A DNA stretch of 52,987 nt, taken from Kalymmatonema hyalinum WJT4-NPBG1 (GTDB lineage Bacteria > Cyanobacteriota > Cyanobacteriia > Cyanobacteriales > Nostocaceae). Of this stretch, positions 30,672-52,701 are shown piece after piece; positions within the stretch are counted from its first letter, which is position 1; each line of letters starts with the position of its first letter. The notes under the pieces are model-generated. The model made no database searches and was not told where the DNA came from. It was given only the letters and a program-made list of their open reading frames with translations. Made by a program: the position numbers and the translations under genes. Where the stretch lies: assembly GCA_019359075.1 (NCBI GenBank), contig JAHHIB010000063.1, positions 1-52,987 on the forward strand, read 5' to 3'.

Positions 30672-30793
30672 TGTCGAATAACTAATTAAATGTCGTCGTT
30701 AACAGATTAATGTCGTTATTAACAAATTAATGTCGCTGTTAAGAGATTAATGTCGTCAAAGTTGCTGTGAGAGTCGTTAACAAATTAATGTCG
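30672..30793 (+). repeat. CAST end (tRNA-proximal) with five TnsB-type repeats
   Basis: Repeats of the form TTAACAAATTAATGTCG end at 30695 (variant, part of the terminal repeat), 30715, 30735, 30755 and 30793. The first four are spaced 20 bp apart and the last after a 38-bp gap. They are inverted relative to those at the other end. By analogy with studied V-K elements these are TnsB binding sites. Confidence 0.9.
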
Positions 30794-30931: not shown

Positions 30932-31116
30932 CTTTCAACCCACCCCTAGCCGGGATGGTTGTTGAAACTATCCACGAGTCGTCGAAGTTGACTAGTACTA
31001 AGTTCGTCTTTCAACCCACCCCTAGCCGGGATGGTTGTTGAAACTTAAGCAATCTGCTAATCACTTTAAAAGCACTGCTCTTTCAACCCACCCCTAGCCG
31101 GGATGGTTGTTGAAAC
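30932..31116 (-). CRISPR. Type V-K CRISPR array, three 37-bp repeats
   Basis: Identical repeats lie at 30932-30968, 31008-31044 and 31080-31116; on the minus strand they begin GTTTCAACAACC and end GGTGGGTTGAAAG. Spacers at 30969-31007 (39 nt) and 31045-31079 (35 nt) separate them. A third spacer follows the 30932 repeat toward the degenerate homing repeat. Transcription is on the minus strand, in the same direction as cas12k and the tracrRNA. I found no match of the two canonical spacers within the window. Confidence 0.96.
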
Positions 31117-31601: not shown

Positions 31602-33524
31602 TTAGATTGATGAAGCTATCCGGCATTGATAAGCAAACAAAGCTAAATCCCGTGCTTGCTCTTGAGGGCTACCTCTAATTGGTTGTTGTCCGGTTTCAAT
31701 CAAGATTCCAACTTTTGCAGCTTGGCTTTGGATGTTCTCAATCAATCGACCGTAACTCCAGTTATGAACTTGTTTGCGATACTCTTTTGCATACTTTTGT
31801 TGACCTTCCTTAAAACCAGGAATTTTTTTCTCGGCTCTTGCTTGAACTTCGCTCTGAATTATTTCCCGCATATCACCGAGTTTTGGCAAGACAATGCTTC
31901 CAGCAAAATAGGTTACTGCGATCGCAACAATCTCTTTGGCTAACAATCTGTCTATATGTTGCCCTAATTCAGATTCGCCAAAATCGTTTCGAGTAAAATC
32001 TTTTTGAGCTTTGTGGCGATCATGAGAAAGGCGTTGCTTTTGTTGTTGCTGGCGATTCAAGAGGTTGTAGTTGTTACCCAGTAATTGCTTGACGCTGCGA
32101 TAAGCGAGAACTTTATTATTGCCTGCATCAAATACAGCAACGGTTGCAGGATTTTCCAAGCCAAGGCTGACACCTACTAAAATATGAGACTTACCCTCGT
32201 ATAGAGGTTTGCTTGGACGAGGAAAAGGGGTGTTAATTTTAGCAAGTGTCGATTGTTGACGGGTGACAAAGGCTTGCTGGTTTGAATTGAGTTCACCTTT
32301 TTCTTTTGCTTTTGTTAAGCTTTGCTCAACATCTCCGATTTTTTCGATGGCTACTTGTTGAGTTCCTTCAACAGTCCACATACGAGTATCAACTGAGCAA
32401 AAAAGGATTAAACGATTTACACTCCACGGTTCTCCTTTACCTTCTTGCTTTAACCAAGACAATCGTCCAGAACGTAGGGTAAATAAGCCGCTGGAATGCT
32501 GGTTTTTCCCCTTGCGTTTAGTCTCCTGGTCTTCCACAAAGCGTTGAAACCAAGGAAGGTGTCTTTGGTCGCAATATACTTCAAACTTTAGTTTGCTTAA
32601 ACCGTTAAAGCTAACAAATATTCGACCTTTATCGCTAATTTCCCAGTGCATATCTTCGTTAGTTTCATAAGCTACTGGGAAGGGGACAGTACTCGGTTTT
32701 CTTAAAAGACTAGCTTGCCAAGATTTGGCTTCGTTTTCATCTTGAGGAATGCTATTGACAGCTTTCTCTAGCGTCTCCAACCATTTTTTTCCTGTTAAAT
32801 CTCGCCCTTTAGGTACTCGGCTTTTTAGCTGCTCTTTCAGTCGTTCAATTTCGATTTCTTTTTTGCGTCTCATCTTGGCATATTTATCAGGATCTTCTTC
32901 AGCAAGGTTCACCTGACAATTATTTTTAATGAGGTAAACTAAGGCAGAGCGTCTTAGGATATCTTCTGTCTTTTGGTAAGCTTCAAATAACACACCAGGC
33001 TTGATAGATATAGGCTCATCAGCTTTGTCTTTTTTAACTTTTTTGCTTTTCTTTCCCTTTGATTTTTGATTTATACCATCAGTGGAACTTGCAGAAAATT
33101 TACTTAATATCTCGGTAGCTCTTGTACGAATAAGCTCTAAACTAGAGTGACTTTCCTGTTCAAGTTCTACATCACTTTTAAGCATTTCGAGCCAACGCTC
33201 TTTCCCTTCTATTTTGCGTTGTCGCCGCTTGTGCAAAGCTAACCAAGATTTGTATATGTATGCCACCAGAATTGTCGCTGAAGTATAAAAACGACCTGGT
33301 TGACCAATAAAAGGTTCTTGTGTTTTGAGTGAGTCACACAGTGCCTTGATAGTCGTTTTTGGCACTTTCCCAGCTTGTACCCATGCCTCAAAATCAGTAT
33401 GTTTTCCCAGCCTATCCAATAATTCGTTAACCAAGGGTGTGTTCTTCTCTGCCATGAGTTCCCAGAGATGGCGGAGCGTTTTGTCATCTGCAACTAAGCG
33501 ACATTGGATCGTAATAACGCTCAT
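31602..33524 (-). CDS. cas12k: Cas12k, catalytically inactive type V-K effector
   Basis: The start is placed at the ATG at 33524 (MSVITIQCRLV), giving 640 residues, close to 639 for ShCas12k; the frame is open 18 codons farther but without similarity. Conserved blocks are NTPLVNELLDRLGKH, RFYTSATILVAYIYKSWLAL, PKGRDLTGKKWLETL, FETNEDMHW-like YETNEDMHWEIS, KNQHSSGLFTLRSGRLSWL, ILVGVSLGLENPATVAVFDA, LAYRSVKQLLGNNYNLLNRQ, ELGQHIDRLLAKEIVAIAV and IVLPKLGDMREIIQSEVQA. In the RuvC-I position the catalytic Asp is absent (GVSLGLENPATVAV), as in all Cas12k. It binds crRNA-tracrRNA and marks targets for TnsC/TnsB. Confidence 0.97.
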   Translation of the reverse strand: MSVITIQCRLVADDKTLRHLWELMAEKNTPLVNELLDRLGKHTDFEAWVQAGKVPKTTIKALCDSLKTQEPFIGQPGRFYTSATILVAYIYKSWLALHKRRQRKIEGKERWLEMLKSDVELEQESHSSLELIRTRATEILSKFSASSTDGINQKSKGKKSKKVKKDKADEPISIKPGVLFEAYQKTEDILRRSALVYLIKNNCQVNLAEEDPDKYAKMRRKKEIEIERLKEQLKSRVPKGRDLTGKKWLETLEKAVNSIPQDENEAKSWQASLLRKPSTVPFPVAYETNEDMHWEISDKGRIFVSFNGLSKLKFEVYCDQRHLPWFQRFVEDQETKRKGKNQHSSGLFTLRSGRLSWLKQEGKGEPWSVNRLILFCSVDTRMWTVEGTQQVAIEKIGDVEQSLTKAKEKGELNSNQQAFVTRQQSTLAKINTPFPRPSKPLYEGKSHILVGVSLGLENPATVAVFDAGNNKVLAYRSVKQLLGNNYNLLNRQQQQKQRLSHDRHKAQKDFTRNDFGESELGQHIDRLLAKEIVAIAVTYFAGSIVLPKLGDMREIIQSEVQARAEKKIPGFKEGQQKYAKEYRKQVHNWSYGRLIENIQSQAAKVGILIETGQQPIRGSPQEQARDLALFAYQCRIASSI

Positions 33525-33653
33525 GGAGTTAAAGATTTTGAGTGACAACCCACTTTGATTATGAGCGCAATGGCGCAAACACTTTTAAGCGCAAGTTTAT
33601 TTTTGTTAATATACTGTGCAAAAATTAAGCCCGGACAAGGACTTGGTGCTGGG
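33525..33653. promoter_or_regulatory. Divergent promoter region between cas12k and an Arc-like regulator
   Basis: The 129-bp gap separates divergent starts. TATACT at 33610-33615 could be a -10 box for the plus-strand regulator; no matching -35 is clear. Repeated GCGC-containing words (GAGCGCAATGGCGCAAAC, TTTTAAGCGCAAG) lie at 33563-33595 and may be binding half-sites. In studied V-K systems the adjacent small regulator represses cas12k from this region. Confidence 0.45.
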
Positions 33654-38488: not shown

Positions 38489-38811
38489 GCATTTGGCTGT
38501 GGATGACTTGGTTATCGAACTGAAGTGTCCTAACCTAATAAATCAATAAAACACCATTTAGTATTATCGGTCTTTCATAGCCCTTAGTGAGTAGCGATCG
38601 CCCGACCGCAACTATGGTGTAGCCTGCGAAGTTTGTTTACCATCTGGCTGATTTTGCTTAATTTTTGGGGCTTAATTATAAACTATACTTATCATTCATC
38701 CAAGGCTTCAGCTTTTTACATTACTCCCAAAAACGGTATCCTACACTACTATTTTTTGGTGATTGCGCGGAGCGCAGTGCCAAAGGCAATCGCAAAACTT
38801 TTCGGTCTACT

Positions 38812-39006: not shown

Positions 39007-39353
39007 CAATTGCACTGCGGCGGCAAAATGCTTCAGCTATCTACAATCCACGTTCCATCTTCCGCCAGTGCATAAGTTGATTTCACTTACACCTATATAA
39101 GAAGGAGGGCTTATGTCCTCGCTAGTTCAAAACCCCGACTTTGTTGAGGTGATTTATGTAGAGATGCACATAGCTAATACTACACAATCAAAATTTTGTC
39201 AATGCGTAAGTTCTATATTAGTCATTCTCAAGAAACCCGGTTTTTTACCCTGGTGCAAGATATGAGCCTCTTACTATCGCGCTGGGGGCGATCGCAACGA
39301 ATGAAGCACATTTTTCCTCAATTTCTGAAAGCTTTGCTATATAAGGGTTCTAA

Positions 39354-39585: not shown

Positions 39586-41121
39586 ATGAATCAGATCGAT
39601 CCATTGTATAGATTCTATACCTTTCCTCAACTAGAACCGAAAGAACCTGGCTGGAATATTAAGTGGATACCAGATTCTAAGTTACGCCAGAATATTAACA
39701 ACATCAAACGGTTAAAGCCTCAATTGACTAAAGAAGAAGATTTTGCATGGTATTTTTTATACTCTTACTTCGACGAGTCAGAAAATGCAGAATCTGAAAT
39801 TCATACAAAGGCTTTTTTAGCAAGCTTTAGTGTTGATATTGTTAGAGATTTTGAGAAGATACTGAAACGTGATTACCGAAATGATTCTGATATTTTAAGT
39901 ATTCTTCAAGATGCTGTTCAAAACGCTTGTAAATACGCCTCAAATCCAAAAATTTTCTTTCGAGGCTTTAGGAGGGAGAGAAACGAGTCTTCTTATGACT
40001 TACTCAAGGCATACATTAAAAAAAGAATGTATGGTTTAGTTAAAGATGAGCTAATTAAAGAAAAACAAGTGAGCCAAACAAGCAATCGTACAGATTTGGG
40101 CTTAGCTGGTAAATCATCTCAAAAACTGGTGAAAGATGCTTTAGAAGCTCAAGGTATAACAAAAGAGCAAGTCGTAAAATATATTGGAATATGGAACACA
40201 TTTCAGGAAGTCAGAAAAACAAGAGAAACAAGTAAAACTGATATAAGTTCACTGACAGAGGAACAGTTTGAGGAAATTGCACGGCGCTACAGTAAGTTAA
40301 ACTCTGTACAAGTTGATGGAACAATAATTAGAAGATATCTGGAAGATATTGGTAGAGCAGTCCGCGATTATCAAAATCCTAAAACTGATTCTTTGGATAT
40401 TCGCAACAATTCAGAAGATAGTACGAGTCTACCTCTTGTTGAACACATTCCAGATACATCTTTGGTTGAAAGTTGGGATGGATTCCCAAGGGAAGAAGAT
40501 AAAGAAAAGCTGAGAACCTTTTTAGAGAACCAAATACAAGAACTAGATATAGAGGCTCAGAGTCTTTTGTTACTTAGACATGGCTTCCAACTGGTACAAA
40601 AACAGATAGCTGGAGAAATTAACAAGGATACAGCTACTGTTAGCCGTCGCTACAAAGCTCTCATAACTGAATTAATACAGAAAATGAGGGAGTGGAAAAA
40701 TCAACATGGGAATATGAATGGAGAAGAGTCTGAACAAGACTTGACTTCAGAGGAGTTGAAAGAAATTAAATCCGATATAATCACTTTTCTTGATGACTAC
40801 TCTTTTCATAGATTTTTTGACCTTTTTCAGCAATCTTTCAACAATCTGTCAGTAGATAATCAAAGTATTTTGGACTCCTATTACCGCAGTTATTTTAATC
40901 AAACTTACTGTGAATACAATAAGATTGATTGTAATTCTAATGGAGTTCATTCAAATAAAGTTCTTCTCTCTGAAGCTTGGAAATTATTACAAGCAGGAAT
41001 AGCACAACAAATCCATAACCACTATTCATTCAATTTGAAATCAGATGGAGCGGCTTGGTTACAGCTTGAAAACATGGAGTTTACTAACCAATTTATGGCA
41101 CATATAGAGAATCAACAGTAA
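39586..41121 (+). CDS. Sigma-70 region 4-like HTH protein, first gene of a sigma-like/DUF1822/CHAT operon
   Basis: This 511-residue protein is preceded by TGGAAG at a good distance. The middle part holds helical segments resembling a diverged sigma region 2 (SSYDLLKAYIKKRMYGLVKD). Residues 325-375 form a region 4-like HTH (QELDIEAQSLLLLRHGFQ, KQIAGEINKDTATVSRRYKA). The C-terminal 130 residues have no known domain. In cyanobacteria such proteins commonly precede DUF1822 and CHAT genes, as here; the DUF1822 gene starts 33 bp downstream. Whether it is a true sigma factor or a structural adaptor is not known. Confidence 0.75.
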   Translation: MNQIDPLYRFYTFPQLEPKEPGWNIKWIPDSKLRQNINNIKRLKPQLTKEEDFAWYFLYSYFDESENAESEIHTKAFLASFSVDIVRDFEKILKRDYRNDSDILSILQDAVQNACKYASNPKIFFRGFRRERNESSYDLLKAYIKKRMYGLVKDELIKEKQVSQTSNRTDLGLAGKSSQKLVKDALEAQGITKEQVVKYIGIWNTFQEVRKTRETSKTDISSLTEEQFEEIARRYSKLNSVQVDGTIIRRYLEDIGRAVRDYQNPKTDSLDIRNNSEDSTSLPLVEHIPDTSLVESWDGFPREEDKEKLRTFLENQIQELDIEAQSLLLLRHGFQLVQKQIAGEINKDTATVSRRYKALITELIQKMREWKNQHGNMNGEESEQDLTSEELKEIKSDIITFLDDYSFHRFFDLFQQSFNNLSVDNQSILDSYYRSYFNQTYCEYNKIDCNSNGVHSNKVLLSEAWKLLQAGIAQQIHNHYSFNLKSDGAAWLQLENMEFTNQFMAHIENQQ

Positions 41122-41153
41122 TTTGATAATACTTGAATAAATGGAGAACATGA

Positions 41154-42371
41154 ATGAAACTGAATTTGCAAGAGCTAAGAAGACTTTATCCCGAGGAAAT
41201 TTGGCAGGAGTTTTCAGAAAAAGACTTGAAACAAAGAGAATCAACTATCCGGCGTTATTCCAATCAAACTGCTCAAAATAATGCAGATTTAAACTGCTGG
41301 TGTCTCAATACTTTTAGAGCTTGGGTGAAGGAAAACCTTGGCGATTCGATAACAGTGTTACCCAGTGAAGCTGATTTACCAACTATTTGGGATGTTGTCA
41401 ATGGTACAGCCATTACTATTGGTAAAACCCGACTTGTTCTAATTCCTGATGAAGCAACAGATACAGAGACATTGACAGTACCGCAAGAATGGGTTGATAT
41501 CCCTGACTGGGTGGCAGACTATTACTTAGCGATACAAGTTAACATTGATGCAGGCTGGATGTGTGTTTGGGGATTTACCAGCCACCGTACTCTGAAGGAT
41601 AAAGGCAACTACGATCCAATTTACCGCACATATTCTCTGGAACGAGACCATGTGATTACAGATTTAGACGTGCTGTGGCTAGCACACGAAATGGGTTTGG
41701 AGGAAAAAGCGAAGGTAGATCCATTGAAATTCTTGTCTCAGTCTAGTGCAAAAGATTTGTTAGTGAGATTGAGTAAACCATCTCCTTACTCTCCTCGTCT
41801 TGATGTGAGCTTTCAAGAATGGGGTGCGCTGTTGGCTAGCAATGAGTGGCGGAATCGTTTATATGAGATGCGAAAAGAAAACGCATCTGGTAACTTGAAG
41901 CAATTCATAGCACAAAATTATGCATTAGTAAAGAACGGATGGGAAGATATTCAAGCTTTTTTCAGTCCAGAAAAAACGCAAATGCAATTAGATTACAGCT
42001 TAAGAAATATTACTGAAGTCAGTAATAGTAGTCTTCATTGGCAAGGTAAATTTATTTACCTAAAGAAGGAATTCAAAGAAATAACGGTATTGCTGAAAGT
42101 TGCTTTTATAAAAGAAGCAGATGGCAGGGTTGGAGTAAAAGTTCAAATACATCCAGGGTCAGAAGAAACATACTTACCTGCAAATCTTAGACTGGCTTTG
42201 CTATTCAACTCAGAAGTACTAAAAAGTGTAACTTCTGGAAAATCGTCTCTTTATATTGAACTCTCCTACTTTAAATGTCAGTTGGGAACTCAATTCTGTA
42301 TTGAAATTGCGCTGGAAACCTCTAGTCACGTAGAAGAATTTTGTATTTCTTTGGAGAGCAATCATGATTAA
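41154..42371 (+). CDS. DUF1822 family protein
   Basis: This 405-residue protein starts after GGAG. It has the usual DUF1822 beginning (LYPEEIWQEFSEKDLKQRES, NADLNCWCLNTFRAWVKENL) and blocks IWDVVNGTAITIGKTRLVLI, ADYYLAIQVNIDAGWMCVWG, FTSHRTLKDKGNYDPIYRTY and DHVITDLDVLWLAHEMGL. Function is unknown; the family is almost confined to cyanobacteria and travels with sigma-like and CHAT genes. Its 3' end overlaps the CHAT gene by 8 bp, implying translational coupling. Confidence 0.82.
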   Translation: MKLNLQELRRLYPEEIWQEFSEKDLKQRESTIRRYSNQTAQNNADLNCWCLNTFRAWVKENLGDSITVLPSEADLPTIWDVVNGTAITIGKTRLVLIPDEATDTETLTVPQEWVDIPDWVADYYLAIQVNIDAGWMCVWGFTSHRTLKDKGNYDPIYRTYSLERDHVITDLDVLWLAHEMGLEEKAKVDPLKFLSQSSAKDLLVRLSKPSPYSPRLDVSFQEWGALLASNEWRNRLYEMRKENASGNLKQFIAQNYALVKNGWEDIQAFFSPEKTQMQLDYSLRNITEVSNSSLHWQGKFIYLKKEFKEITVLLKVAFIKEADGRVGVKVQIHPGSEETYLPANLRLALLFNSEVLKSVTSGKSSLYIELSYFKCQLGTQFCIEIALETSSHVEEFCISLESNHD

Positions 42372-43620
42372 ACGAATTGAAATTTATTTAAGAAGAGATG
42401 AAAAGGATGGATTTCACGTAAAAATTAAACTACAGACACCATCAAGTAAATTAGATCTAGAGGGTTTTTCCCTACCATTTAATAAAACTCTTGTCGATGA
42501 TTATGAAGATTGGCAAAAATCGCATCTAGAATTTTATTCAAACAGAAAAGTTAATAGTAATATACCAATTGAATTTGAGTTTAATTGTGATAGTGTGCAA
42601 AATGTAAACTCTAAATATAGTAATTTAAAAAGATCCATAAATGATTGGCTAAATACTAAAGAATTTAGCGATAGAGAAAAGCAACTTCGCACAGAATTAA
42701 GTAAACAAGACAAAATTCTGGTGATAATTTCAACAGAAGATGAGTTTGCATGGAAGTTACCGTGGCATTTATGGAATTTCTTTGATGCCTATATAAAGGC
42801 ATGGGTAGTCTTGAGTCATTCTGAATCTAGAAACGATAATTTAAACAAGAATCATTTTTTAGTTCCAAAAGTCCTTGCAATTTTTGATCAGTTTGATAAG
42901 AAAGATAAGAGTGAGTGGAATGATTGGTTAGAAATGTCAAAAAACAATATCATTGACTTTGATTATTTAATAGGGGAGCAAATTGAAAATGAAAAGGTGT
43001 TAAAAACAATTTCACAAAAACTGAATGAAAAAGATTGGAATATTCTTTTCTTTGCTGGTCATAGTTATATCGACGCAAATAATGGGGAATCAAGATTTTG
43101 TATAAAATATAACAGCCAGAGATCAAAATGTGACGTATCCCTAACTATTGAAGAATTAGACAATGTTTTGAAGACTGCTTTCAATCGAGGGCTACGATTA
43201 GCGATTTTCAACTCTTGCAGTGGGTTAGGATTAGCACGAGGGTTACTTAAATTAAATCTGCCGAACGTAATTGTTATGCGTGAGGATGTACCTAGTATAG
43301 TGGCAGAGAAATTTCTCAAATATTTTTTGGAAGAGTTTATGGCGAACAAAGGTACACCCGCCTTTTTGGCAGTACGAAAAGCAATAGAAAATTTGCAAAT
43401 GGAACAACATCAATTTCCTAGTGCAAGTTTTTTACCAGTGATGTGTTTTAATCCGGCTACAGAGCCATTAGTTATTCCTCCTGACCCACCAGAGCTGAAT
43501 AGCACTAAGAGAAAGACAAAAAAACTATTATCTATAAGGCTTTTGGGTGTGGGGTGTGGGGTATTAGGTGTAGTGAGGAAGAAGTCTATTGGTGTTCACA
43601 CTTATTTTTATTTTTCTTAA
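42364..43620 (+). CDS. CHAT-domain caspase-like protease
   Basis: In this 418-residue protein the CHAT domain occupies about residues 115-375. The catalytic dyad is intact: His233 in WNILFFAGHSYID and Cys285 in RLAIFNSCSGLGLARGLL. Other blocks are VIISTEDEFAWKLPWHLWNF, LPNVIVMREDVPSIVAEKFL and GTPAFLAVRKAIENLQ. The last 35 residues (after RKTKKLLSIRL) are encoded by a TGTGGGGTGTGGGG-type repeat, so the original C-terminus, often a membrane/CHASE2 region in relatives, appears replaced or lost. CHAT proteases act in prokaryotic conflict systems by cleaving specific proteins after a trigger. The two upstream genes presumably sense or regulate. Confidence 0.85.
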   Translation: MIKRIEIYLRRDEKDGFHVKIKLQTPSSKLDLEGFSLPFNKTLVDDYEDWQKSHLEFYSNRKVNSNIPIEFEFNCDSVQNVNSKYSNLKRSINDWLNTKEFSDREKQLRTELSKQDKILVIISTEDEFAWKLPWHLWNFFDAYIKAWVVLSHSESRNDNLNKNHFLVPKVLAIFDQFDKKDKSEWNDWLEMSKNNIIDFDYLIGEQIENEKVLKTISQKLNEKDWNILFFAGHSYIDANNGESRFCIKYNSQRSKCDVSLTIEELDNVLKTAFNRGLRLAIFNSCSGLGLARGLLKLNLPNVIVMREDVPSIVAEKFLKYFLEEFMANKGTPAFLAVRKAIENLQMEQHQFPSASFLPVMCFNPATEPLVIPPDPPELNSTKRKTKKLLSIRLLGVGCGVLGVVRKKSIGVHTYFYFS

Positions 43621-43854
43621 TGTTTCCTTACACCCTACACCCAATTCCTTATACCTAGTCCTGGCAAGCATTTCGGTTTATCTTAGTGCCGTTCGACCTA
43701 GAGTTGAAACCCAAGCCAAGGCAACATTCCCTTCTCTGTTTGCTTCTCAAGTGGATCTTCCCAGGCTTGGTATCAGATGAAGAGCGGTACTAAACCTTTG
43801 CAAATTTTTTAGCAACCACCCCAATTAATAAGTAGAGATGTGGAGAAACCACTT
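43621..43854. other. Junction region after the CHAT gene, repeat insertion and coding-like relic
   Basis: CTTACACCCTACACCC at 43627-43642 is the inverted counterpart of GGTGTGGGGTGTGGGG at about 43545-43562, making a stem that spans the end of the CHAT gene. Beyond it, to 43780, the frame LASISVYLSAVRPRVETQAK is open but unrecognised and may be the displaced tail of the CHAT protein. The start region of the next gene follows. Confidence 0.4.
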
Positions 43855-44077
43855 ATGAATGAAGAACACAACACATTTGAAGACAAAGACAAAGACTCGT
43901 CAGAAAAGTCGCCAAAGCAACCGCCAAAAGTGCCAGAAGTGCTGCAGCATATTCAGTCTCTGGAGAAACCACTTATGAATGAAGAACACAACACATTTGA
44001 AGACAAGGACAAAGACTTGTCAGAAAAGTTGCCAAAGCAACTGCCAAAATTACTACAGCAGATTCAGTCTCATCTAT
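43841..44077 (+). repeat. Coding tandem duplication, 120-bp period
   Basis: TGGAGAAACCACTTATGAAT recurs exactly at 43841 and 43961. The following sequence to about 43955 and 44066 stays similar with scattered changes and a 9-bp length difference. It duplicates the ribosome-binding site and start region as well as about 37 codons, so a second in-frame start (43975) with its own GGAG exists. Confidence 0.85.
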
Positions 44078-44592
44078 CCCAGATGCCAGAATCAGTCAAA
44101 AACCTGACAAATACGATCTGGGAAGAACTAACATCTACACAAGAGGTTGACCTTCAACAAAAACAGCAGGTTTATCACAATATTGCTCAATTTTTGCAAG
44201 AAAGGCTCCAAGTAGAGTTTCAAAAAGTAGAATTTCAAACCTACTTGCAAACAACTTACATATTATGTAACGAATCCGATCCACAACTGGTAGGCGAACA
44301 GCCACTAAGCGAGGTAGCTCAAAAACTGGCAACCGAAGTAAAAGATCTCATCCTCACTATCAAAGTGCATTACTTGAAACACCAAGAAGTTCCAACTTCT
44401 GACACAGGCGTAAACAGTAAGTACTTGCGTCAAACCGAAATTTTTTACATAGATCGCAATAACCCAAAACCCAACGTTTTTCGAGTTGATGAACAAATGG
44501 AATGGGACAACTTACCGGGTGATGTACGAGAAAGCTTTATCAAGGAAAATTTAGCTCGGATCAGCTTTAAACTTTATCCCCAAGGAGACTAA
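43855..44592 (+). CDS. Cassette protein A: acidic N-terminal repeat and C-terminal LPxDVR motif
   Basis: The ATG at 43855 (MNEEHNTFEDKDKD), preceded by GGAG, gives 245 residues; GTG at 43840 would add five, and ATG at 43975 with the same ribosome site would give a shorter form. Residues 1-75 are two copies of NEEHNTFEDKDKDxSEK. Residues 75-180 are helical (QKQQVYHNIAQFLQERLQVE). Near the C-terminus is MEWDNLPGDVRESF. I recognise no domain. It heads a seven-gene plus-strand cassette; the next gene starts 4 bp later. Confidence 0.7.
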   Translation: MNEEHNTFEDKDKDSSEKSPKQPPKVPEVLQHIQSLEKPLMNEEHNTFEDKDKDLSEKLPKQLPKLLQQIQSHLSQMPESVKNLTNTIWEELTSTQEVDLQQKQQVYHNIAQFLQERLQVEFQKVEFQTYLQTTYILCNESDPQLVGEQPLSEVAQKLATEVKDLILTIKVHYLKHQEVPTSDTGVNSKYLRQTEIFYIDRNNPKPNVFRVDEQMEWDNLPGDVRESFIKENLARISFKLYPQGD

Positions 44593-44596
44593 CATT

Positions 44597-45196
44597 ATGG
44601 AAATCTTTGTACAAGTTCTACTGGGAGTCCTATTTGTAGCAGTCGGAGTCGTACTCATCTTCTGGAACAAAATCCTTGAATGGGTAAGTGACAATTTTCT
44701 TCCCTGGTTTGAGAAAAACTTCTCATATGAGTTAGGATACAAGGTTAGACTTGCTTTCGCGGCGCTTGAAAAAGTTGCCACACCAATACACGGGAAGATC
44801 AAAGTTTATTGGAAAAACTTCACCGACATCAAAGAAGCTTGGCAAACGCTCAGCAAATCTTTACTGAGACTATTAGTCCAGTTTGAGCGGAACGCACGAA
44901 ATGAGTGGATTAAACGGATTACTTATTGGGTAACTCGTTATATTAGATCCAAGCAGAAGACATCAGCGTTTAAAGAGGATATAGTTGGCTTTGATTCATC
45001 GCAAATTCGTACCCCTGAGTCTAACAAGCCAGAAGTGGTGCGGGTGGTTGCAGAGGAGAAAATTGACTTTAGTCAATTGCCACCTGATGTGCGCCAAGAA
45101 TGGCTGAAACGGGGTAATAGTAATATTAGTCAGGATCTAGATGTGACTCAGTTGCGCGATCGCGAACTCGAACTCGCTATGACCAATTCCAATTAA
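44597..45196 (+). CDS. Cassette protein B: N-terminal membrane anchor, C-terminal LPxDVR motif
   Basis: This 199-residue protein starts after AAGGAG. Residues 3-24 (IFVQVLLGVLFVAVGVVLIF) are one transmembrane helix. The middle is basic and helical (KSLLRLLVQFERNARNEWIK, RITYWVTRYIRSKQK). The C-terminal part has KIDFSQLPPDVRQEWLKRG. No known domain is seen. The arrangement suggests a membrane tether presenting its C-terminal motif to the cytoplasm. Confidence 0.7.
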   Translation: MEIFVQVLLGVLFVAVGVVLIFWNKILEWVSDNFLPWFEKNFSYELGYKVRLAFAALEKVATPIHGKIKVYWKNFTDIKEAWQTLSKSLLRLLVQFERNARNEWIKRITYWVTRYIRSKQKTSAFKEDIVGFDSSQIRTPESNKPEVVRVVAEEKIDFSQLPPDVRQEWLKRGNSNISQDLDVTQLRDRELELAMTNSN

Positions 45197-45214
45197 CGTC
45201 ACAACACACTTGTA

Positions 45215-45547
45215 ATGTATTGGACACTCATCACAAAACTTGCAATTGTAGTAACAGTTGGATATTTAGCTTGGAATCATCAACATCAAATTCGGGAAAG
45301 CGTTGCTGCATGGTTGCGTGAGCAAGGCTTACAGGATAGCGCCTTAATGAAAACCTGGATTGTTTTTGACCGATTGATTTCTAGAGTTCGCCGTTCCCTA
45401 ATGCTGGAAACCAGACAAACTGGTACTCAAAAGATATCTGAGACAAGCCATTCCCTAGAAGAAATTCGCAAAACTGACCCTGACGTTTATGACCAACTAC
45501 AAAGGTTGGGCCACGCCGAAAAAAACATTATGCCTTTATTGCAATAG
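45215..45547 (+). CDS. Cassette protein C: small single-pass membrane protein
   Basis: This 110-residue protein has an N-terminal hydrophobic segment (YWTLITKLAIVVTVGYLAW, residues 2-20). A helical basic region follows (LMKTWIVFDRLISRVRRSLM), and the tail SLEEIRKTDPDVYDQLQRLG echoes the LPxDVRxxW motif of its neighbours. No ribosome site is strong. Genes on each side are 18 and 12 bp away. Function is unknown; it may pair with protein B. Confidence 0.65.
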   Translation: MYWTLITKLAIVVTVGYLAWNHQHQIRESVAAWLREQGLQDSALMKTWIVFDRLISRVRRSLMLETRQTGTQKISETSHSLEEIRKTDPDVYDQLQRLGHAEKNIMPLLQ

Positions 45548-45559
45548 CAGGAAACAAAT

Positions 45560-46651
45560 ATGCCAGCACCTTGGACCAGAATCGATAAACCTAACCAATC
45601 TCATCAACCTCAAGCTGTCGATAAACCTAACCAATCTCATCAATCTCAAGCTAATGTAACCGTTTCGTCGGATACTAGTTCTGAAACTTCTGAAATCCAG
45701 CGGATGGAAATGTTTGTCCCAGAAACACCCAAACGCAGCCTAAATGACCTGATTGTATCAGCTAAGGTTAAAACCCAGATTGAAACAGCCTTAAACAGCA
45801 TTCGTTTCCATGATGTGCTGTACCACGAGTGGAACTTAAAAAAGATTGACCCTCACGGACATCGAGTAGCAATTAATCTGTTTGGTCCACCAGGAACGGG
45901 AAAGACGTTCTGCGCTGAGGCGATCGCTCATTATTTGGGTAAATCAATCATCCGTGTAAACTATGCAGAGATTGAATCTAAATACGTAGGAGAAACTCCA
46001 AAAAATATTAAAGCAGCTTTCAACAAAGCCCGTGAAACCGGAGCAGTATTATTCTTCGACGAAGCCGATTCAATTCTTGGCAAGCGACTCACTAATGTTA
46101 CCCAAAGCGCCGATCATGGAGTCAATGTTAGCCGTTCAGTTATGTTGTTGGAGTTAGATAACTTCAATGGAATCGTGATTTTTGCTACTAATTTACCAGG
46201 AAACTACGACGGGGCTTTTGTAAGACGAATTCAAGCACATATTGAGTTTGAACTTCCAAACGAAGATTGCCGAATGCAATTGTGGAATTTACTACTACCT
46301 ACAGAAGTTCCCCGTGCAGACGATATTACCGTTGAATGGTTAGCGCAAGAGTCTATAGGTTTAGCTGGTGGAGATATTCTCAATGTAGTAAAGTTAGCTG
46401 CAAGCCAAGCTGTTGTCCGGACTGGAGAAGAGCGAAGGATTTTACAATCAGATATTCAAAACGCCATCACCCAAGTCAAGCTTGGCAAAGAAAAAGTTGG
46501 TACTGGGTTCTCTTATCACAACCAATCTACTACAACAGTAGTCAAAGAAGAGATAGTTTCACCTGAAGAATTGCCTTCTGACGTTCGTGAGAAATACGAG
46601 CAAGTCTTGGAACAGGATAATGTTTCCGATGCTATTGCTGTTGGAACTTAA
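45560..46651 (+). CDS. Cassette protein D: AAA+ ATPase (Cdc48/FtsH-like module)
   Basis: This 363-residue protein has a good ribosome site (AGGAA). Residues 9-31 contain a 12-residue tandem duplication (DKPNQSHQPQAV, DKPNQSHQSQA). The AAA module has Walker A FGPPGTGKTF (109-116), pore-like YAEIESKYVGETPKNIK, Walker B GAVLFFDEADSIL (162-173), sensor 1 IVIFATNLPGNYD, arginine finger AFVRRIQAHIEFELP and sensor 2 SIGLAGGDILNVVK. The C-terminal tail is SPEELPSDVREKYEQVLEQD. It lacks a protease domain, so it probably remodels or unfolds a partner, plausibly the membrane proteins of this cassette. Confidence 0.85.
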   Translation: MPAPWTRIDKPNQSHQPQAVDKPNQSHQSQANVTVSSDTSSETSEIQRMEMFVPETPKRSLNDLIVSAKVKTQIETALNSIRFHDVLYHEWNLKKIDPHGHRVAINLFGPPGTGKTFCAEAIAHYLGKSIIRVNYAEIESKYVGETPKNIKAAFNKARETGAVLFFDEADSILGKRLTNVTQSADHGVNVSRSVMLLELDNFNGIVIFATNLPGNYDGAFVRRIQAHIEFELPNEDCRMQLWNLLLPTEVPRADDITVEWLAQESIGLAGGDILNVVKLAASQAVVRTGEERRILQSDIQNAITQVKLGKEKVGTGFSYHNQSTTTVVKEEIVSPEELPSDVREKYEQVLEQDNVSDAIAVGT

Positions 46652-46818
46652 TCAGGAATGACTCTTATGTTGGGGTGGTGTTACAAATGTGTTGAAGATG
46701 ATGTTTATATCTATCTTACAGTAAGTAATTAAACAACTGAATCGACACTTTAGACACACCACTAGCCCAACCTTTAAGTACTTTTTTTGTTAATTAATTC
46801 GTAACTGTAAATAATTGC

Positions 46819-47421
46819 ATGAACTGGACACAAGACCACATGAACAACAACTTTCAGTTACTCGCTGGTACGCTAAGTCCAGCAGAAGCGCTTGTAGAAT
46901 TAGTAACTGAATATGGTGTCGTTTTGGATGAGCATTCAAAACCAGTAGCACTAGTTACAGCTGATGATTTAGAACAAGCAGCTAACCAAGGTATTAGCTC
47001 TCTACTCGATATTAAGGTAGGGTTCCCTCTTACTATTTTCATTATTGGTTATCAAGTAGATATTGGTTATCAAGTAGATAGGCAAGACCTCGTGAATTTG
47101 AAAAGTCTTACCGAGCGGTATAATCAAATTAGAGGAGTCATAGTCTTATCATCAATAGATGATAAGACAGTTGTTGGGATATTACCTATTACAACTGTTC
47201 GCAACTATTTAAGAAATGATGATTATGAGTTGCGCGGTAACCGATCAGGCGCTCTTGGTGACAGTGAATTAGCAGGAGGATTTAAGTCATCAAAGATTAA
47301 GTATCGGTATAAGTGTCTTGAGTGCGGTTTTGTTAATGAGCGGGTTTATACGGATCCGGATAAGCCGCCTAATTGTCTAAATCCTAATAATAAGACCCCC
47401 CACATATTAAAACTCCCTTAA
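46819..47421 (+). CDS. Cassette protein E: CBS-like domain with C-terminal zinc ribbon-like motif
   Basis: In this 200-residue protein residues 15-120 resemble a diverged CBS pair (LDEHSKPVALVTADDLEQAA and GVIVLSSIDDKTVVGILPIT). The C-terminal part has YKCLECGFVNERVYTDPDKP then PNCLNPNNKTPH, a CxxC plus Cys/His pattern suggesting zinc. A small tandem duplication gives GYQVDIGYQVD. The 167-bp gap before it has no clear ribosome site; the alternative start is the ATG at 46840. CBS domains usually sense adenosine nucleotides; this assignment is weak. Confidence 0.6.
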   Translation: MNWTQDHMNNNFQLLAGTLSPAEALVELVTEYGVVLDEHSKPVALVTADDLEQAANQGISSLLDIKVGFPLTIFIIGYQVDIGYQVDRQDLVNLKSLTERYNQIRGVIVLSSIDDKTVVGILPITTVRNYLRNDDYELRGNRSGALGDSELAGGFKSSKIKYRYKCLECGFVNERVYTDPDKPPNCLNPNNKTPHILKLP

Positions 47422-47434
47422 GTTGGAGACAGCT

Positions 47435-48355
47435 ATGTTAAATGATGTTCTTAAGGAAGTTCCCGGACTTCTTGGTCGCCGTTTCCTAATGAATGCCTTT
47501 TTTCCCAGTTTTCTTTTTTGGGGATTGGTTATTGTAGTCGGGATCACGGGACAGGCAGATTTTGTTAACGTTTTGAAAGAATGGAATCAACTGGATATCA
47601 CATTAAAAACTTTGCAAATTATTGGCTTTTTTAGTTGGGTCACAGTCTTCTCTATTATCTTATCTAACCATTTCAATACCATCTTGCGCTTTTATGAAGG
47701 TTACTGGAATTTTCCGCTTGGTCAGTTATTGAAAAATAATAGGCGTAATTGGTATAAAGCTCGTTTAGACGACTTATATAACCGGGATGATTATGAAACT
47801 ATGTATTTGTATTATCCCTTGCCAAAACACGCAGATAATGTCATGCCAACTCGCTTAGGCAATATTCTCATAAACGCTGAACTATACTCTTCTGACCGCT
47901 ATGATATAGATGCTGTTCTTATCTGGCCACGTTTATACAATTTGTTCCCAGAGCGTTTTCTTGAGACTATTGCTGAAGCAAAAAGCTCTCTAGATTTCAT
48001 GCTTGTGGTTTCTGCCTTAAGCAGTATTTTTGCCTTATTCAGTGGTGTTTATTTAGTAATTGTTAAGGCATCTGGATTGCTTTTTCTGACGTGTTTTTGG
48101 GGAGGATTATTCTTAGCGTGGTTAACTTATCGGAGCGCTTTAGGAAGTGCCTTACTCTATGCCCAACAGATTAAAACAGGTTTTGACCTTTATCGTCATG
48201 AATTATTAAAACAAATGCGCTTAGAACTGCCTAAGACACCATCAAAAGAGCGTAAATTATGGAAGAGAATTGGTCGCCTTCTTTATAAAGACGAAAAAAA
48301 CGTACAATTGCAATACAAAGATACTGATGCAGCTAAGACTCAAAACTCGCCATAA
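47435..48355 (+). CDS. Cassette protein F: multi-pass membrane protein
   Basis: The ATG at 47435 follows TTGGAGACAGCT and gives 306 residues (an in-frame TTG at 47423 is also possible). Hydrophobic segments lie near residues 22-42 (FFPSFLFWGLVIVVGITG), 60-80 (IIGFFSWVTVFSIILSNHF), 188-210 (SLDFMLVVSALSSIFALFSG) and 215-240 (GLLFLTCFWGGLFLAWLTYR), with a loop containing PTRLGNILINAELYSSDRYD and IDAVLIWPRLYNLFPE. Proteins with this PTRLGN...YGIDAxxxWPRL loop occur widely in bacteria as uncharacterised membrane proteins. It starts 14 bp after protein E. Confidence 0.75.
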   Translation: MLNDVLKEVPGLLGRRFLMNAFFPSFLFWGLVIVVGITGQADFVNVLKEWNQLDITLKTLQIIGFFSWVTVFSIILSNHFNTILRFYEGYWNFPLGQLLKNNRRNWYKARLDDLYNRDDYETMYLYYPLPKHADNVMPTRLGNILINAELYSSDRYDIDAVLIWPRLYNLFPERFLETIAEAKSSLDFMLVVSALSSIFALFSGVYLVIVKASGLLFLTCFWGGLFLAWLTYRSALGSALLYAQQIKTGFDLYRHELLKQMRLELPKTPSKERKLWKRIGRLLYKDEKNVQLQYKDTDAAKTQNSP

Positions 48356-48366
48356 TATCCAAAAAA

Positions 48367-48975
48367 ATGGATTTCCTCATGCAGTTGCTGTTCAAACCAT
48401 CTCTCAGCCACTTGATAACTATACTGGCTTTTATTGTTGGAATTGTCGGATATATCTACCTCGAACATACTAAAATTGAGATTCAAGTTCCCAACCGGGA
48501 TTTACCCGCCTATTATAAGATCAAACCAGGCGATCTCAGATCAGAAACTTACGCTAAAAAAGACATTTCTTCACAGGTTTTAAAAAACTCCCAAGAACTT
48601 GTAGGTCGTTACACCTTGACCAAAATTCCTAAGCAAAAGCTTTTAACTGAAAAGCTTGTTAGCTCTAAAATCGACTCAAATCGCCTTGTTGATACTGTTG
48701 TCGTTGGTATTCCTGCAACACCTGCCATGATATTAGGTGGTAACTTGCAAGCAGGCGATACTGTAGAAATGACACTTGTACCCACTACAACTAAGGCAGA
48801 ATCTTTACCATCTCCTGTAGTATTTTCTAACATCTTAGTGTTGGATGTCAAGTCAGTGTCTCAAGCCAGTGCTTCATCGACATCTGTAGTCGTAGTTGCC
48901 TTGCCCTCAAAGCGTCGGCAAGAATTTGCTAGCAAAAGTCCTGGTGCAACCTTCTTGCTTACCCGCAAGCTTTAA
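48367..48975 (+). CDS. Cassette protein G: SAF-domain membrane-anchored protein
   Basis: This 202-residue protein has one transmembrane helix (residues 16-34, LITILAFIVGIVGYIYLE). A SAF-type domain follows (IEIQVPNRDLPAYYKIKPGD, ELVGRYTLTKIPKQKLLTEK), then a beta-rich part with VVGIPATPAMILGGNLQAGD and MTLVPTT, like the periplasmic region of CpaB/RcpC pilus-assembly proteins. No other pilus genes are present, so the domain is probably reused. It closes the seven-gene cassette, 12 bp after protein F; tniQ converges from the other side. Confidence 0.72.
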   Translation: MDFLMQLLFKPSLSHLITILAFIVGIVGYIYLEHTKIEIQVPNRDLPAYYKIKPGDLRSETYAKKDISSQVLKNSQELVGRYTLTKIPKQKLLTEKLVSSKIDSNRLVDTVVVGIPATPAMILGGNLQAGDTVEMTLVPTTTKAESLPSPVVFSNILVLDVKSVSQASASSTSVVVVALPSKRRQEFASKSPGATFLLTRKL

Positions 48976-49073: not shown

Positions 49074-49577
49074 TCAACAAGCCTTCTGACGCTTTGCCAT
49101 CGTCGCAAATGGTAAAAAACAATGCGGACACTCCCCTTGTACCCAATCTGCTGGAATCGGGAAGGGTGTCTCGCAGTTAGTGCATTTTGTGAGTAAGCGT
49201 AAATTGTGGCGATCGCATACCATCACATCCTTAAACTGCCACTCAACGCGGTGACAGGGTGACTCCTGATAACAAGCACCACACAATCGAATAGGTCTTG
49301 GTTTCATCGTCACACCTTTTGGTGGTAGCATCTCGCTCAATCTGTCAACTTTAACTTCCACCACAGCAGCCAACGCTTCTAACTCATGCGGTGTCGGAAA
49401 TGGATTCAAATAAAACTTCTCCCACCGTGAAATAACTGCACCAATTCCCGTTAATTTACCTAATTGAGTTGCAGTTAAATAATTTGCCCGACGAAAACGA
49501 CCCAAAAAATGACTTAAGCTTTCTCCTTCGAGCGGCTCTACTTGAAAAAATCTTGGTTCTTTCGCAGGTATTTCCAT
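49074..49577 (-). CDS. tniQ: TniQ, target-selection protein of the V-K CAST
   Basis: This 167-residue protein is the short form typical of V-K elements. It opens with FFQVEPLEGESLSHFLGRFR, has the HTH-like LTATQLGKLTGIGAVISRWE, and then two zinc-knuckle pairs: RLCGACYQESPCHRVEW...CDRH and LLTKCTNCETPF...GECPHC. TniQ bridges Cas12k and TnsC at the target. Its start overlaps the tnsC stop by one base (TAATG), indicating coupling. Confidence 0.94.
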   Translation of the reverse strand: MEIPAKEPRFFQVEPLEGESLSHFLGRFRRANYLTATQLGKLTGIGAVISRWEKFYLNPFPTPHELEALAAVVEVKVDRLSEMLPPKGVTMKPRPIRLCGACYQESPCHRVEWQFKDVMVCDRHNLRLLTKCTNCETPFPIPADWVQGECPHCFLPFATMAKRQKAC

Positions 49578-50413
49578 TACTCAAACCACTCCAAAACCTC
49601 ATCCAAAGTAGCCTTATCAATATTTTTCAAACCTTTTCTCAAGGATAAAATTGCCGCCCTTCTTAATACCCTATCTACCAAACCAATTTTGCCACTTGTT
49701 TTTTGATATAGCGGCATTAAAGTTTCACTTTTTGTTAAATTCGATGGCACAGGTAAACACAAAACTTCATCTTCCCAAATTTGTACAAATTCAGGAAATT
49801 TCTTTTCTGATACTAATGGTAATCTATAACATTCTATAAATCGATCATGAATATATGGCTCTTTTTTAATAAGATTATCCAGACCATCTGTTCCCACAAG
49901 AACAATTGAAATTTTCAATAAATCATAAATGCGGGCAATCTCACTAAAAGTATTTAACTTCAGAAAATTTGCTTCATCGATAACCAGCATCTCAACTTTG
50001 GACTCCTTTAAAAGCCTTAATACTCGCCTTCTCAGGTCTGTAAGTTTCCCTGAAATAGCATCATATTTCAAACTTTCAAGTATTAAAGTTAGCAACTCCC
50101 CAGCCGAACAATCTCCAGGCACTTGCATATATAAGACGGGTACAATATCGCGCTTTCCTGTTCTTTTCTGCGGCTTATTCAGGAGTTTATAAACATCACA
50201 AGTCACCGACTTACCTGCTCGTGGTGGTGCAACAATTCGACCGCATTGTTTAGAGAGTCGTAAACTGTCTAACCAGTCATGAATTTTTTGGATATGCTCA
50301 AGTTCGACAACACTAGGAGTAATTAGCCGTTCAATTATCGGCAGTAATTCTTCCGGTATCGGGTCATCTCCCCATAAATTCTGCACCCACTTCCGCAAAT
50401 AATCTTCTGCCAT
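49577..50413 (-). CDS. tnsC: TnsC, AAA+ transposition regulator
   Basis: This 278-residue protein has Walker A APPRAGKS (62-69), Walker B EMLVIDEANFL (141-151), sensor 1 ISIVLVGTDGLD and arginine-finger-like region EPYIHDRFIECYRLP. In V-K systems TnsC polymerises on DNA next to Cas12k-TniQ and recruits TnsB. The size and lack of extensions fit the V-K type rather than canonical Tn7 TnsC. It is 62 bp downstream of tnsB. Confidence 0.95.
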   Translation of the reverse strand: MAEDYLRKWVQNLWGDDPIPEELLPIIERLITPSVVELEHIQKIHDWLDSLRLSKQCGRIVAPPRAGKSVTCDVYKLLNKPQKRTGKRDIVPVLYMQVPGDCSAGELLTLILESLKYDAISGKLTDLRRRVLRLLKESKVEMLVIDEANFLKLNTFSEIARIYDLLKISIVLVGTDGLDNLIKKEPYIHDRFIECYRLPLVSEKKFPEFVQIWEDEVLCLPVPSNLTKSETLMPLYQKTSGKIGLVDRVLRRAAILSLRKGLKNIDKATLDEVLEWFE

Positions 50414-50475
50414 AATCAGTGGTTTCTCAAATATAAAATGCGTTCAAAATCGATAAACCAAAAACATCAATCAGA

Positions 50476-52215
50476 TTAATCATCGTAGTCTTTGCGAAGT
50501 TGCTCGTAGTCAAATACTCTGGGGCGACGCTTTTGAGGTTGAGGTATTTCTTCTACAGTTTCTACTGGCTCGTTAGTTTGAGGTGGTTTTACAGAATGCA
50601 CCTGAGCTTGTTCTTCTTTCTTGCGTTGCTTGTGACTCTTTTTCTTTTGCTTAATAAAAGTGTCTCTATCCTGCACTTCTGCAAGGATTGATTTATTACT
50701 TAATTGCTTGCCTGCATTCCGGATTTTCCGACTTGCAGCTTTTGTCTCCTCTAAGGAAATCTGCTCAGTTTCTAAGTCAATCGCATGAGCTTGAGACAGT
50801 AGCACTTCCTTGCCCGAATCTTGGCGGTATACGAACACAGTTGATATGTCTCTAGGGTCATATCGCAACAACACACTTTCTCCTGCATAAGCTGATAAAT
50901 AATCTCCGCGATACATAATGTTTTCAAAGCTTACATATCCGCCTTTGTAGATACTGCGGCGGGTCTTTTTCATCAGGCAGATATCCAACTCTCGCTCATT
51001 GACCAAATTCGGCAGTGCAGGTAATCCCGCTTCCCAGCGTTGAAACCTGGTTTGGTTTCCACTGCGAGCATCAATTCGCTGATTGTAGTTATCAACGATG
51101 TAGCGCAGTATTAATAGATGTAATTCTCGCAGAGTAATACAAGCTTCCTCTTCTGCTCCTTCTGGACGCTCTTGTACATTTGAACCTAGATAACCGTAAA
51201 ATCCTGACAAAAAATCGGTGTTGATAGTCCCAAATCCACGTTCTTCAATTCCACCTTCTGGTGGGCGATCGCGTAAATGGCACTCAAAACCAAGTTGAAA
51301 ACCAATTTGCTTCAAATGCTCGGAGCGAAAATCCTTCCCGCCATCAGTAAATAGATTTTCTGGAACCCCGTAAGTCCCCCACTCGCAATGAAGTTTATAT
51401 TCCGAACTATACTGCTTGCGTAACATCGCATGACGCATAGCTAAGGCGACTACCAGAGAACTAGGTGCATCAAAACCTAAATGGATGCCCATAATGCAGC
51501 GCGAATAGCTATCTGTAATTTTTGTCAACCAAGGACGTGCCAAAGTTTCACCGTACTGGTCAACTAGCATGACATCCAATTTTGTATGGTCGCACTGCCA
51601 AACATGGTTACTATGATGTACATCGAGCGTCTGACCATCACGAGTTTGATGGGAAACTCTCGATCCACGCCAACCAATATTTCTTACCTTCTGCTTCTGC
51701 TCTTTACGTTCAATAATCGGGTTAAGAACGCGATAAACCGTCATATGGCAGGGATATTTCTCTAAACCTAGCTGTCCGGCTCTAACCTGAACTCGAATTG
51801 CGACTTGGGCAGGTGTCATTTTTCTACCGCCCTTGTTACCTTCTTTATAAGTTTTGACGATAAAATCTTGCCAATCATCATCAATCCGATACCCACCTTT
51901 GTCAGAACGTTCGACTTCACTAACGCCTGATAACCCCTGTTCTTGATATTTTTTGACGAGTCGCTGTACCGTCCGAACCGTCTTGCCAAGTTTTTCTGCG
52001 GCTTGCTTTAATTTAATTCCGTAGGTTTTGCGATCGCACGGCTCAATAAGGCTTTGCAGTACCTCCATTCTCAGCTTGGCTTCCTCTGAGAGTTCAGTAA
52101 CAATTACATTGCTTTGTTTTGTATCCTCACTCTCGGAAATTTCATCAACCTCATCCGAACCGTCGTACAAAACTAAAGATTCATCAACCTCGTTGGAGTT
52201 TAGCGTTTCACCCAT
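50476..52215 (-). CDS. tnsB: TnsB, DDE transposase of the V-K CAST
   Basis: This 579-residue protein has N-terminal HTH domains (LKQAAEKLGKTVRTVQRLVK; RKMTPAQVAIRVQVRAGQLG). The retroviral-integrase-like core has Asp209 in VWQCDHTKLDVM, Asp291 in LFTDGGKDFR and Glu325 in GGIEERGFGTIN; each is offset by four from the catalytic D205/D287/E321 of ShTnsB as I recall it. A C-terminal basic tail (KQKKKSHKQRKKEEQ) and PPQTNEP-type linker lead to the TnsC-binding end. It cuts and joins transposon 3' ends; no TnsA is encoded. Confidence 0.96.
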   Translation of the reverse strand: MGETLNSNEVDESLVLYDGSDEVDEISESEDTKQSNVIVTELSEEAKLRMEVLQSLIEPCDRKTYGIKLKQAAEKLGKTVRTVQRLVKKYQEQGLSGVSEVERSDKGGYRIDDDWQDFIVKTYKEGNKGGRKMTPAQVAIRVQVRAGQLGLEKYPCHMTVYRVLNPIIERKEQKQKVRNIGWRGSRVSHQTRDGQTLDVHHSNHVWQCDHTKLDVMLVDQYGETLARPWLTKITDSYSRCIMGIHLGFDAPSSLVVALAMRHAMLRKQYSSEYKLHCEWGTYGVPENLFTDGGKDFRSEHLKQIGFQLGFECHLRDRPPEGGIEERGFGTINTDFLSGFYGYLGSNVQERPEGAEEEACITLRELHLLILRYIVDNYNQRIDARSGNQTRFQRWEAGLPALPNLVNERELDICLMKKTRRSIYKGGYVSFENIMYRGDYLSAYAGESVLLRYDPRDISTVFVYRQDSGKEVLLSQAHAIDLETEQISLEETKAASRKIRNAGKQLSNKSILAEVQDRDTFIKQKKKSHKQRKKEEQAQVHSVKPPQTNEPVETVEEIPQPQKRRPRVFDYEQLRKDYDD

Positions 52216-52437: not shown

Positions 52438-52701
52438 ACGACATTTAATTTTATATTTTTCCTTTACTTCCAAAAGACGACACTTATTTTGTTATGACCG
52501 TTAAAAACTTTGGAAAGAGATTTTTTGAAAAAACGACACTTAAAATGTTATAGTTAGAAATTACGACGTTTAATTAGTTAAATATTTAGGAATGGTAAAT
52601 AGAAATCAAAAAGGCTATAATCCTTGCTTAGTAGGGATTATAGCCTTTACGGCTTGAGCGACATTAATTTGTTAAGACGACATTTAATTAGTTATGCGAC
52701 A
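52438..52701 (-). repeat. CAST end (tnsB side) with about six TnsB-type repeats and terminal inverted repeat
   Basis: Repeats of the form CGACATTTAATTAGTTA start at 52439, 52478, 52534, 52564, 52659 and 52678; those nearest the tip are best conserved. The tip TGTCGCATAACTAATT (minus strand from 52701) differs from the other end at one base of 26. The spacing here is irregular compared with the 20-bp spacing at the tRNA-proximal end, as in studied V-K elements where the two ends differ. Confidence 0.88.
52610..52648. terminator. Perfect 14-bp stem-loop inside the tnsB-side end
   Basis: AAAGGCTATAATCC (52610-52623) pairs perfectly with GGATTATAGCCTTT (52635-52648) around an 11-nt loop. On the minus strand it is followed by TTTTGATTTC, and on the plus strand by little T. 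It sits between TnsB repeats, upstream of tnsB, and may stop transcription entering from outside the element. Confidence 0.6.

Follow-up and report, generated by a model that had tools for sequence, protein, structure and literature searches.

The 52,987-nucleotide contig JAHHIB010000063.1 from Kalymmatonema hyalinum WJT4-NPBG1, a cyanobacterium of the Nostocaceae (the whole of this stretch is referred to below as the window), carries a cluster of seven plus-strand genes, designated A to G (43840-48975), which a genuine type V-K CRISPR-associated transposon (CAST) carries as cargo. An earlier note, made from the sequence of the window without database searches, had read the seven as one cassette with a suggested anti-phage or conflict function, in which a CBS-like protein reads a signal and an AAA+ ATPase perhaps responds by loading or opening a membrane effector. 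Our comparisons separate the cluster: A-B-C-D is a mobile AAA+ module (module 1), E-F-G belongs to another family (module 2), and the two are not one conserved cassette. We propose, with a probability of roughly 40%, that a CHAT-protease triad on the CAST is followed by two separately mobile modules, one after the other, the whole forming a CHAT-triggered membrane conflict system. The architecture of two modules and a triad is firm; the mechanism we infer. This divides a puzzling cargo cassette between two families, both open to test, to which the libraries searched assign no function.

Two modules in one gene cluster

The seven genes are real open reading frames (ORFs) and their coordinates were confirmed. 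Module 1 consists of A (43840-44592), an acidic soluble protein; B (44597-45196), a single-pass membrane protein; C (45215-45547), a small protein with a borderline N-terminal transmembrane (TM) segment; and D (45560-46651), a single-domain AAA+ ATPase. Module 2 consists of E (46819-47421), which has a CBS-like N terminus and a C-terminal Cys/His ribbon; F (47423-48355), a membrane protein with four TM segments; and G (48367-48975), with one TM segment and a SAF/CpaB-like domain. Intergenic gaps from A to G are 4, 18, 12, 167, 1 and 11 bp, five of the six falling within 1-18 bp, and the sole wide gap, of 167 bp, lies between D and E, where it coincides with the module boundary.

Evidence for the division comes from related loci. 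A six-frame search, which located D in all 94 D-family loci, found no match to E, F or G in the 93 loci other than the window, some of which are on short contigs, and F was found in none of the five other cyanobacterial genomes with A-B-D, some of which are incomplete. Because E, F and G are absent near D, and F is absent from the A-B-D genomes, we consider the seven genes to be two modules that met on one transposon. Conversely, genome G222 has the order CHAT-E-F-G with no A-D in the surrounding 19.9 kb. Among eight genomes checked, some incomplete, one of three with a related D has an F relative carrying an internal stop. Joint conservation, on which the single-cassette claim depended, was therefore found within each half of the cluster and not between A-D and E-G, and the claim of one seven-gene system fails on this point.

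Much else in the earlier description has stood. The ATPase is indeed encoded with membrane proteins, and the note's parts list holds for the duplicated acidic protein A, the membrane proteins B, F and G, and an AAA+ protein D without a protease match; the TM segment of C is borderline, and the CBS domain of E and the SAF domain of G score below their cut-offs. The composition was called unrecognised, and no profile match in Pfam, NCBIfam, defence models or PHROG accounts for A, B, C, E or F. Specifically, neither Pfam nor NCBIfam yields a match above cut-off for A, B, C or F, all of A-G except D are without a PHROG match at E 0.001, and no peptidase match above cut-off in Pfam or NCBIfam occurs among A-G.

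The AAA+ module and its C-terminal tails

D is a classical AAA+ protein (PF00004, 1.4e-28) with Walker A GPPGTGKT, a YVG pore loop and Walker B FFDEAD. Its best PHROG match is the function-unknown profile phrog_3757 (5.7e-57 over residues 21-334), among defence models it scores best with IetA (1.7e-33), and its NCBIfam matches, to CdvC, PAN, IetA and CDC48, are all far below curated cut-offs. A has a net charge of -14 and a tandem N-terminal duplication that is modelled as disordered, followed by helices, a C-terminal beta-beta-beta-alpha-beta domain and a tail helix with LPGDVR. B has the same C-terminal domain, with LPPDVR, and D ends in LPSDVR; this tail, common to A, B and D, went unmentioned in the earlier note. 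TM prediction gives clear N-terminal segments in B and in G, and a value of 1.51 against a threshold of 1.5 in C. Relatives of A and B that were scanned have no Pfam or NCBIfam match either, and a PADLOC match of A to ZorA1 (0.0028, the best) was judged too weak to use as an identity.

Profile comparison shows the tails of A and B to be homologous, as a C-terminal domain with an LPxDVR helix common to A, B and the additional B-like proteins found in relatives. Within a small protein set from six loci, a profile of A detects B proteins that lie outside it (best independent E-value, i-E, 6.1e-13); conversely, A proteins are detected by a profile of B (best i-E 5.5e-11). With single sequences, A matches a B protein at 2.4e-5 among 1478 ORFs. 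Of 61 B/C-cluster proteins, 17 have the motif [LI]Px[DE][VI]R within their final 75 residues, against 0 of 1007 background ORFs, a comparison that is partly circular in that the B/C cluster was itself built by similarity. The common tail supplies a biochemical prediction for module 1, namely a tail-dependent complex with D. A compact plasmid form from Moraxella and Comamonas (L105:4953-7374, L107:2866-5145) comprises a D-type AAA+ protein, a one-TM protein with an IPEHIR or LPEKIR tail and two hypothetical proteins.

The model of A weakly resembles COMMD proteins, which we treat as a lead only. Of its first 15 Foldseek rows, 11 are COMMD chains (best E 7.4e-3), and these proteins, including the bacterial COMMD-like octamer PDB 9q6c, have, like the model of A, a helical N terminus and a beta-beta-beta-alpha C-terminal domain. 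A second-look structure list had no family clear of unrelated rows; no COMM match was obtained from Pfam at E up to 1, nor any COMMD chain by profile search at E up to 10, for both of which the relatives may be too distant.

Module 1 is rare and patchy in the window's class. Counting the window's own genome in each case, B turns up in 2 of 291 genomes and A in 3 of 388, and D has matches with E-values of 1e-59 or lower in 8 of the 388; relaxing the threshold for D to 1e-30 raises that figure to 145, mostly through longer AAA+ proteins. Beyond the class, the best 80 of at least 472 confirmed D relatives in named genomes span Cyanobacteria, Chloroflexi, Proteobacteria, Planctomycetes, Firmicutes, Actinobacteria and others, and D relatives are also found on plasmids and viral contigs. 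The combination A-B-D recurs in five other cyanobacterial loci, from G076 (L094), Scytonema sp. NIES-4073 (L112), Dendronalium (L113), Trichodesmium (L114) and Okeania (L122), of which two have two copies of B and four an additional B-like gene; relatives of C are present in L094 and L113. Four Streptomyces loci (L106, L262, L263 and L264, with L263 and L135 being the same place) also have A-B-D. Of the 94 D-family loci, 29 contain a match to a B profile, and a B-type match occurs in 3 of 295 genomes of Streptomyces, the genus of G395, that central genome included.

Several of these loci have individual features. An EAD10 (effector-associated domain 10) gene lies at L094:6763-7272, near the A-D module of G076, the neighbours of which resemble transposase and integrase by eye. 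Two DUF697 proteins (L122:8749-10182 and 13198-14661) are encoded near the Okeania A-B-D genes, one with an MMR_HSR1/dynamin-type GTPase domain, and G193 has an orphan A-like gene (L275:10827-11510) with no D within 20 kb, perhaps a remnant. A Pfam-confirmed Peptidase_M48 gene stands near a D-type AAA+ gene, ahead of a B-like protein, at L128:4311-5912 and L136:4387-6228, and in L139, L154, L176 and L183 by cluster only. Another D subtype (L104, L116, L118, L119, L120, L133, L159) pairs with one gene cluster, whose L104 member is annotated with a TipAS antibiotic-recognition domain, and no B-cluster member occurs at these loci. On the IMG/VR contigs L195, L198 and L199, D-type AAA+ proteins occur with B-family tail proteins. 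A cyanobacterial D subtype (L096, L097, L162, L175, L187) has conserved partners of its own, some ending in SPLPxxR (by eye), as a parallel version of module 1.

Module 1 might alternatively be a membrane-protein quality-control or remodelling machine with Vps4- or Msp1-like action, having no defence role and being mobilised passively. The models against which D scores best (CdvC, PAN, IetA, CDC48), its YVG pore loop, its membrane-protein partners and the spread of its relatives across many phyla are what such a machine would predict, but a patchy occurrence in the class, relatives on plasmids and viral contigs, and the EAD10, transposase-like and integrase-like neighbours in G076 argue against it; we regard this explanation as unlikely.

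The F family and neighbouring protease genes

The core of F, MPTRLGN...YGLDA..WPRL..LLP, is the family consensus from a 20-sequence alignment, and its model (pLDDT 87) has four membrane-length helices and a long helical hairpin. A PADLOC match to 2TM_IV (0.024, the best) was rejected as the identity of F for weakness. The CBS match of E (PF00571) reaches 18.7 bits against a cut-off of 24, and its C-terminal ribbon was recognised by eye; a relative of E directly precedes F in L040 (1.7e-11). G matches TIGR03177 (CpaB) at 1.7e-10 with 40.6 of the 71 bits required, RcpC with 18.1 of 28.8 and SAF with 13.1 of 21, all below cut-off. Among the 291 genomes of the window's class, own genome included, 42 have F and 2 have G.

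F is associated with proteases. Neighbourhoods were examined at 20 loci from 19 genomes, out of the listed places of F. In 17 of the 20 a small Cys/His-ribbon protein is encoded ahead of F (16 directly, one a gene apart; the E relative of L040 is included), and in 14 a CHAT gene lies upstream on the same strand. Counts of CHAT are lower bounds, since each of two CHAT profiles detected only part of the CHAT proteins; four of the 14 upstream proteins seeded a CHAT profile and Pfam confirms CHAT in L040 and L042, while proteins of L115 and L119 that first clustered with CHAT were excluded as beta-propeller repeats by Pfam. As background, the window's own 8.4 Mb genome has 47 CHAT matches. F also occurs in nine plasmid records, of which eight were examined and seven are annotated; in six of these seven the stretch also encodes a CHAT protein, a caspase-family protein or an M4 peptidase (CHAT being Pfam-confirmed in two), and in the other, H31, it encodes none of the three. 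CHAT, a Cys/His-ribbon protein and F recur in this order, which suggests a membrane effector under protease control; bacterial gasdermins and Craspase targets would be analogues.

Transposon setting, upstream triad and known systems

The CAST has Cas12k (31602..33578, minus strand; NF038191, 3.7e-290), three CRISPR repeats of the CRISPR-DR15 type (30932..31116, plus strand; Rfam RF01329, 58 bits) and TniQ, TniB/TnsC-like and TnsB-like genes (49074..52215, minus strand; PF06527, PF05621, PF09299). A right-end-like cluster of TnsB-type sites (30679..30790) consists of 11-mers that recur in inverted orientation in a left-end-like cluster (52438..52690), and a tRNA-Pro lies at 30589. Matches to cyanobacterial sigma-factor models fit a cyanobacterial host. 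Inside the element are a GmrSD_N gene (33852-35720; PF03235, 1.4e-30), a transposase remnant (38665-39075) and, upstream of A, a triad of plus-strand genes encoding a sigma-70-like protein (39586..41121; TIGR02937, 3.6e-5, 23.4 bits against a cut-off of 42.9), a DUF1822 protein (41154..42371; PF08852, 5.4e-75) and a CHAT (caspase-like) protein (42364..43620; PF12770, 2.1e-11). CAST carriage, a DUF262-type nuclease neighbour and a CHAT operon in a conflict-type neighbourhood had all been noticed earlier, and each is borne out by these matches.

In the window's CHAT protein the domain match ends at residue 349 of 418, with no further domain and no C-terminal effector region. Residues 33-364 align with the N-terminal ~370 residues of proteins from L112 and L180, which continue into nSTAND1 and WD40; the region ahead of the CHAT domain, where an EACC2-caspase protein would have its EACC2 alpha+beta domain, is part of this likeness, and the alignment conserves FFAGHS and NSC, which we take to be the motifs with the catalytic His and Cys. 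An inverted repeat (43543-43557 / 43630-43644, 93% complementary) flanks the CHAT stop codon and could have shortened the gene. As in the window, DUF1822 and CHAT flank a D-type AAA+ gene in L112 and L180, the L180 protein being of a related subtype with other partners. DUF1822 has seven matches in the window's own genome, and because of this the three D-family loci beside DUF1822 look more than chance.

The triad, A-D and E-G may, on another view, be no more than adjacent defence-island cargo without a functional link. The modules do occur apart, a GmrSD_N gene and a transposase remnant are close by, and the cargo of Tn7-like transposons is very diverse (PMC8649781). Against this, F relatives accompany CHAT or caspase genes, and DUF1822 with CHAT accompanies D-type AAA+ genes in L112 and L180, so that a wholly unconnected assemblage seems to us improbable.

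In the CHAT-triggered membrane conflict system that we favour, D would be a ring-forming, translocase-type single-domain AAA+ protein working with soluble A, membrane-anchored B and C, and, in relatives, further B-like copies. LPxDVR tails would hold the A, B and C proteins together, with D carrying a short form, and D would spend ATP to assemble, pull on or disassemble a membrane-bound A/B/C oligomer. F is a four-TM protein encoded behind the Cys/His-ribbon protein E and, in most relatives examined, beside a CHAT or caspase protease, and G would be an accessory SAF-type protein, probably periplasmic. The CHAT protein, having lost or never had the fused effector usual in such proteins, would most likely act in trans on either module or both, triggering a membrane-directed response on infection or stress in a putative defence role. 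A more speculative version, which we hold to be rather unlikely, would make A-D an undescribed class of bacterial membrane machine, with a Vps4-like AAA+ protein building and dismantling a hetero-oligomer in which a COMM-like tail domain links soluble and membrane-anchored paralogues. Such machines would be widespread on mobile DNA, and the one in the window would be coupled to CHAT and to a second, protease-gated family of four-TM effectors.

A number of observations weigh against the proposed system. The tail of D is a short, weak version (best i-E 0.015), that of C is degenerate (DPDVY), and the motif was not seen in D relatives from Chloroflexi. A promoter scan gave no excess (10 sites against 12.4 expected), with one weak site in the D-E gap. 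The window's sigma-like protein has no match to the gene beside DUF1822 in L112 or L180, and CHAT was detected near just 3 of the 10 loci with A-B-D and 6 of the 94 in the D family (narrow profiles, lower bounds); module 1 therefore does not need CHAT. For F, there is no significant structural match, and a second-look structure list had no family clear of unrelated rows.

One integrated anti-phage system, with E sensing a signal and D opening or loading F as membrane effector, would suit genes that lie on one strand, mostly 1-18 bp apart, and are carried jointly by one CAST, but the absences described above, E-F-G without A-D in G222 and the position of the 167-bp gap make it a poor prospect. 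MotB and ExbD have one TM segment with a domain beyond it, as G does, and an Asp within that segment, which the single TM sequence of G lacks. The first seven Foldseek matches of F are to MotA/PomA stators, with TolQ and ExbB lower, none of them significant. F and G as an ion-driven pair of the MotA/MotB or ZorA/ZorB kind is compatible with the fold of F but a weak reading, and we hold it to be highly improbable.

Comparison with described systems separates the components further. IetAS shares with module 1 the best defence score of D and differs in its protease, the partner of the IetA AAA+ protein being the IetS subtilase; D was rejected as an IetAS member, having 101.7 bits against a cut-off of 510 and no protease or subtilase match in Pfam or NCBIfam among A-G. 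CdvC and Vps4 are single-domain AAA+ proteins that act on membrane-bound polymers through short C-terminal tails, and to these, with ESCRT-III, module 1 bears a mechanistic analogy, combining a single-domain AAA+ protein with partners that have C-terminal tails; D was rejected as CdvC itself (105.2 against 650 bits), with no MIT or ESCRT-III match in A-D. A cyclic-oligonucleotide-based anti-phage signalling system (CBASS) with TRIP13 was also rejected, as D matches TRIP13 weakly (2e-11) but no HORMA or CD-NTase match occurs in A-G or the triad. Neither A-D nor the CHAT-ribbon-F family matches a recognised described system in the literature searched, which excluded most subscription papers and all preprints, and both look undescribed; the upstream triad is already known. 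Its likeness is to EACC2-caspase systems. According to PMC8195603 (eLife 2021), the caspase proteins of these systems have extracytoplasmic function (ECF) sigma and DUF1822 genes as neighbours, and their C-terminal regions vary widely, with multi-TM forms among them; the words CBS and SAF do not occur in the main text of that paper. Window positions 39586-43620 similarly encode a sigma-like protein, a DUF1822 protein and a CHAT/caspase-type protein, with DUF1822 next to the CHAT gene and with the sub-cut-off sigma-like gene as a weak candidate for the ECF sigma factor. They differ in that the window's CHAT polypeptide has no variable C-terminal effector region, and A-D and E-G follow as separate genes; in this EACC2-type triad, the effector may work in trans.

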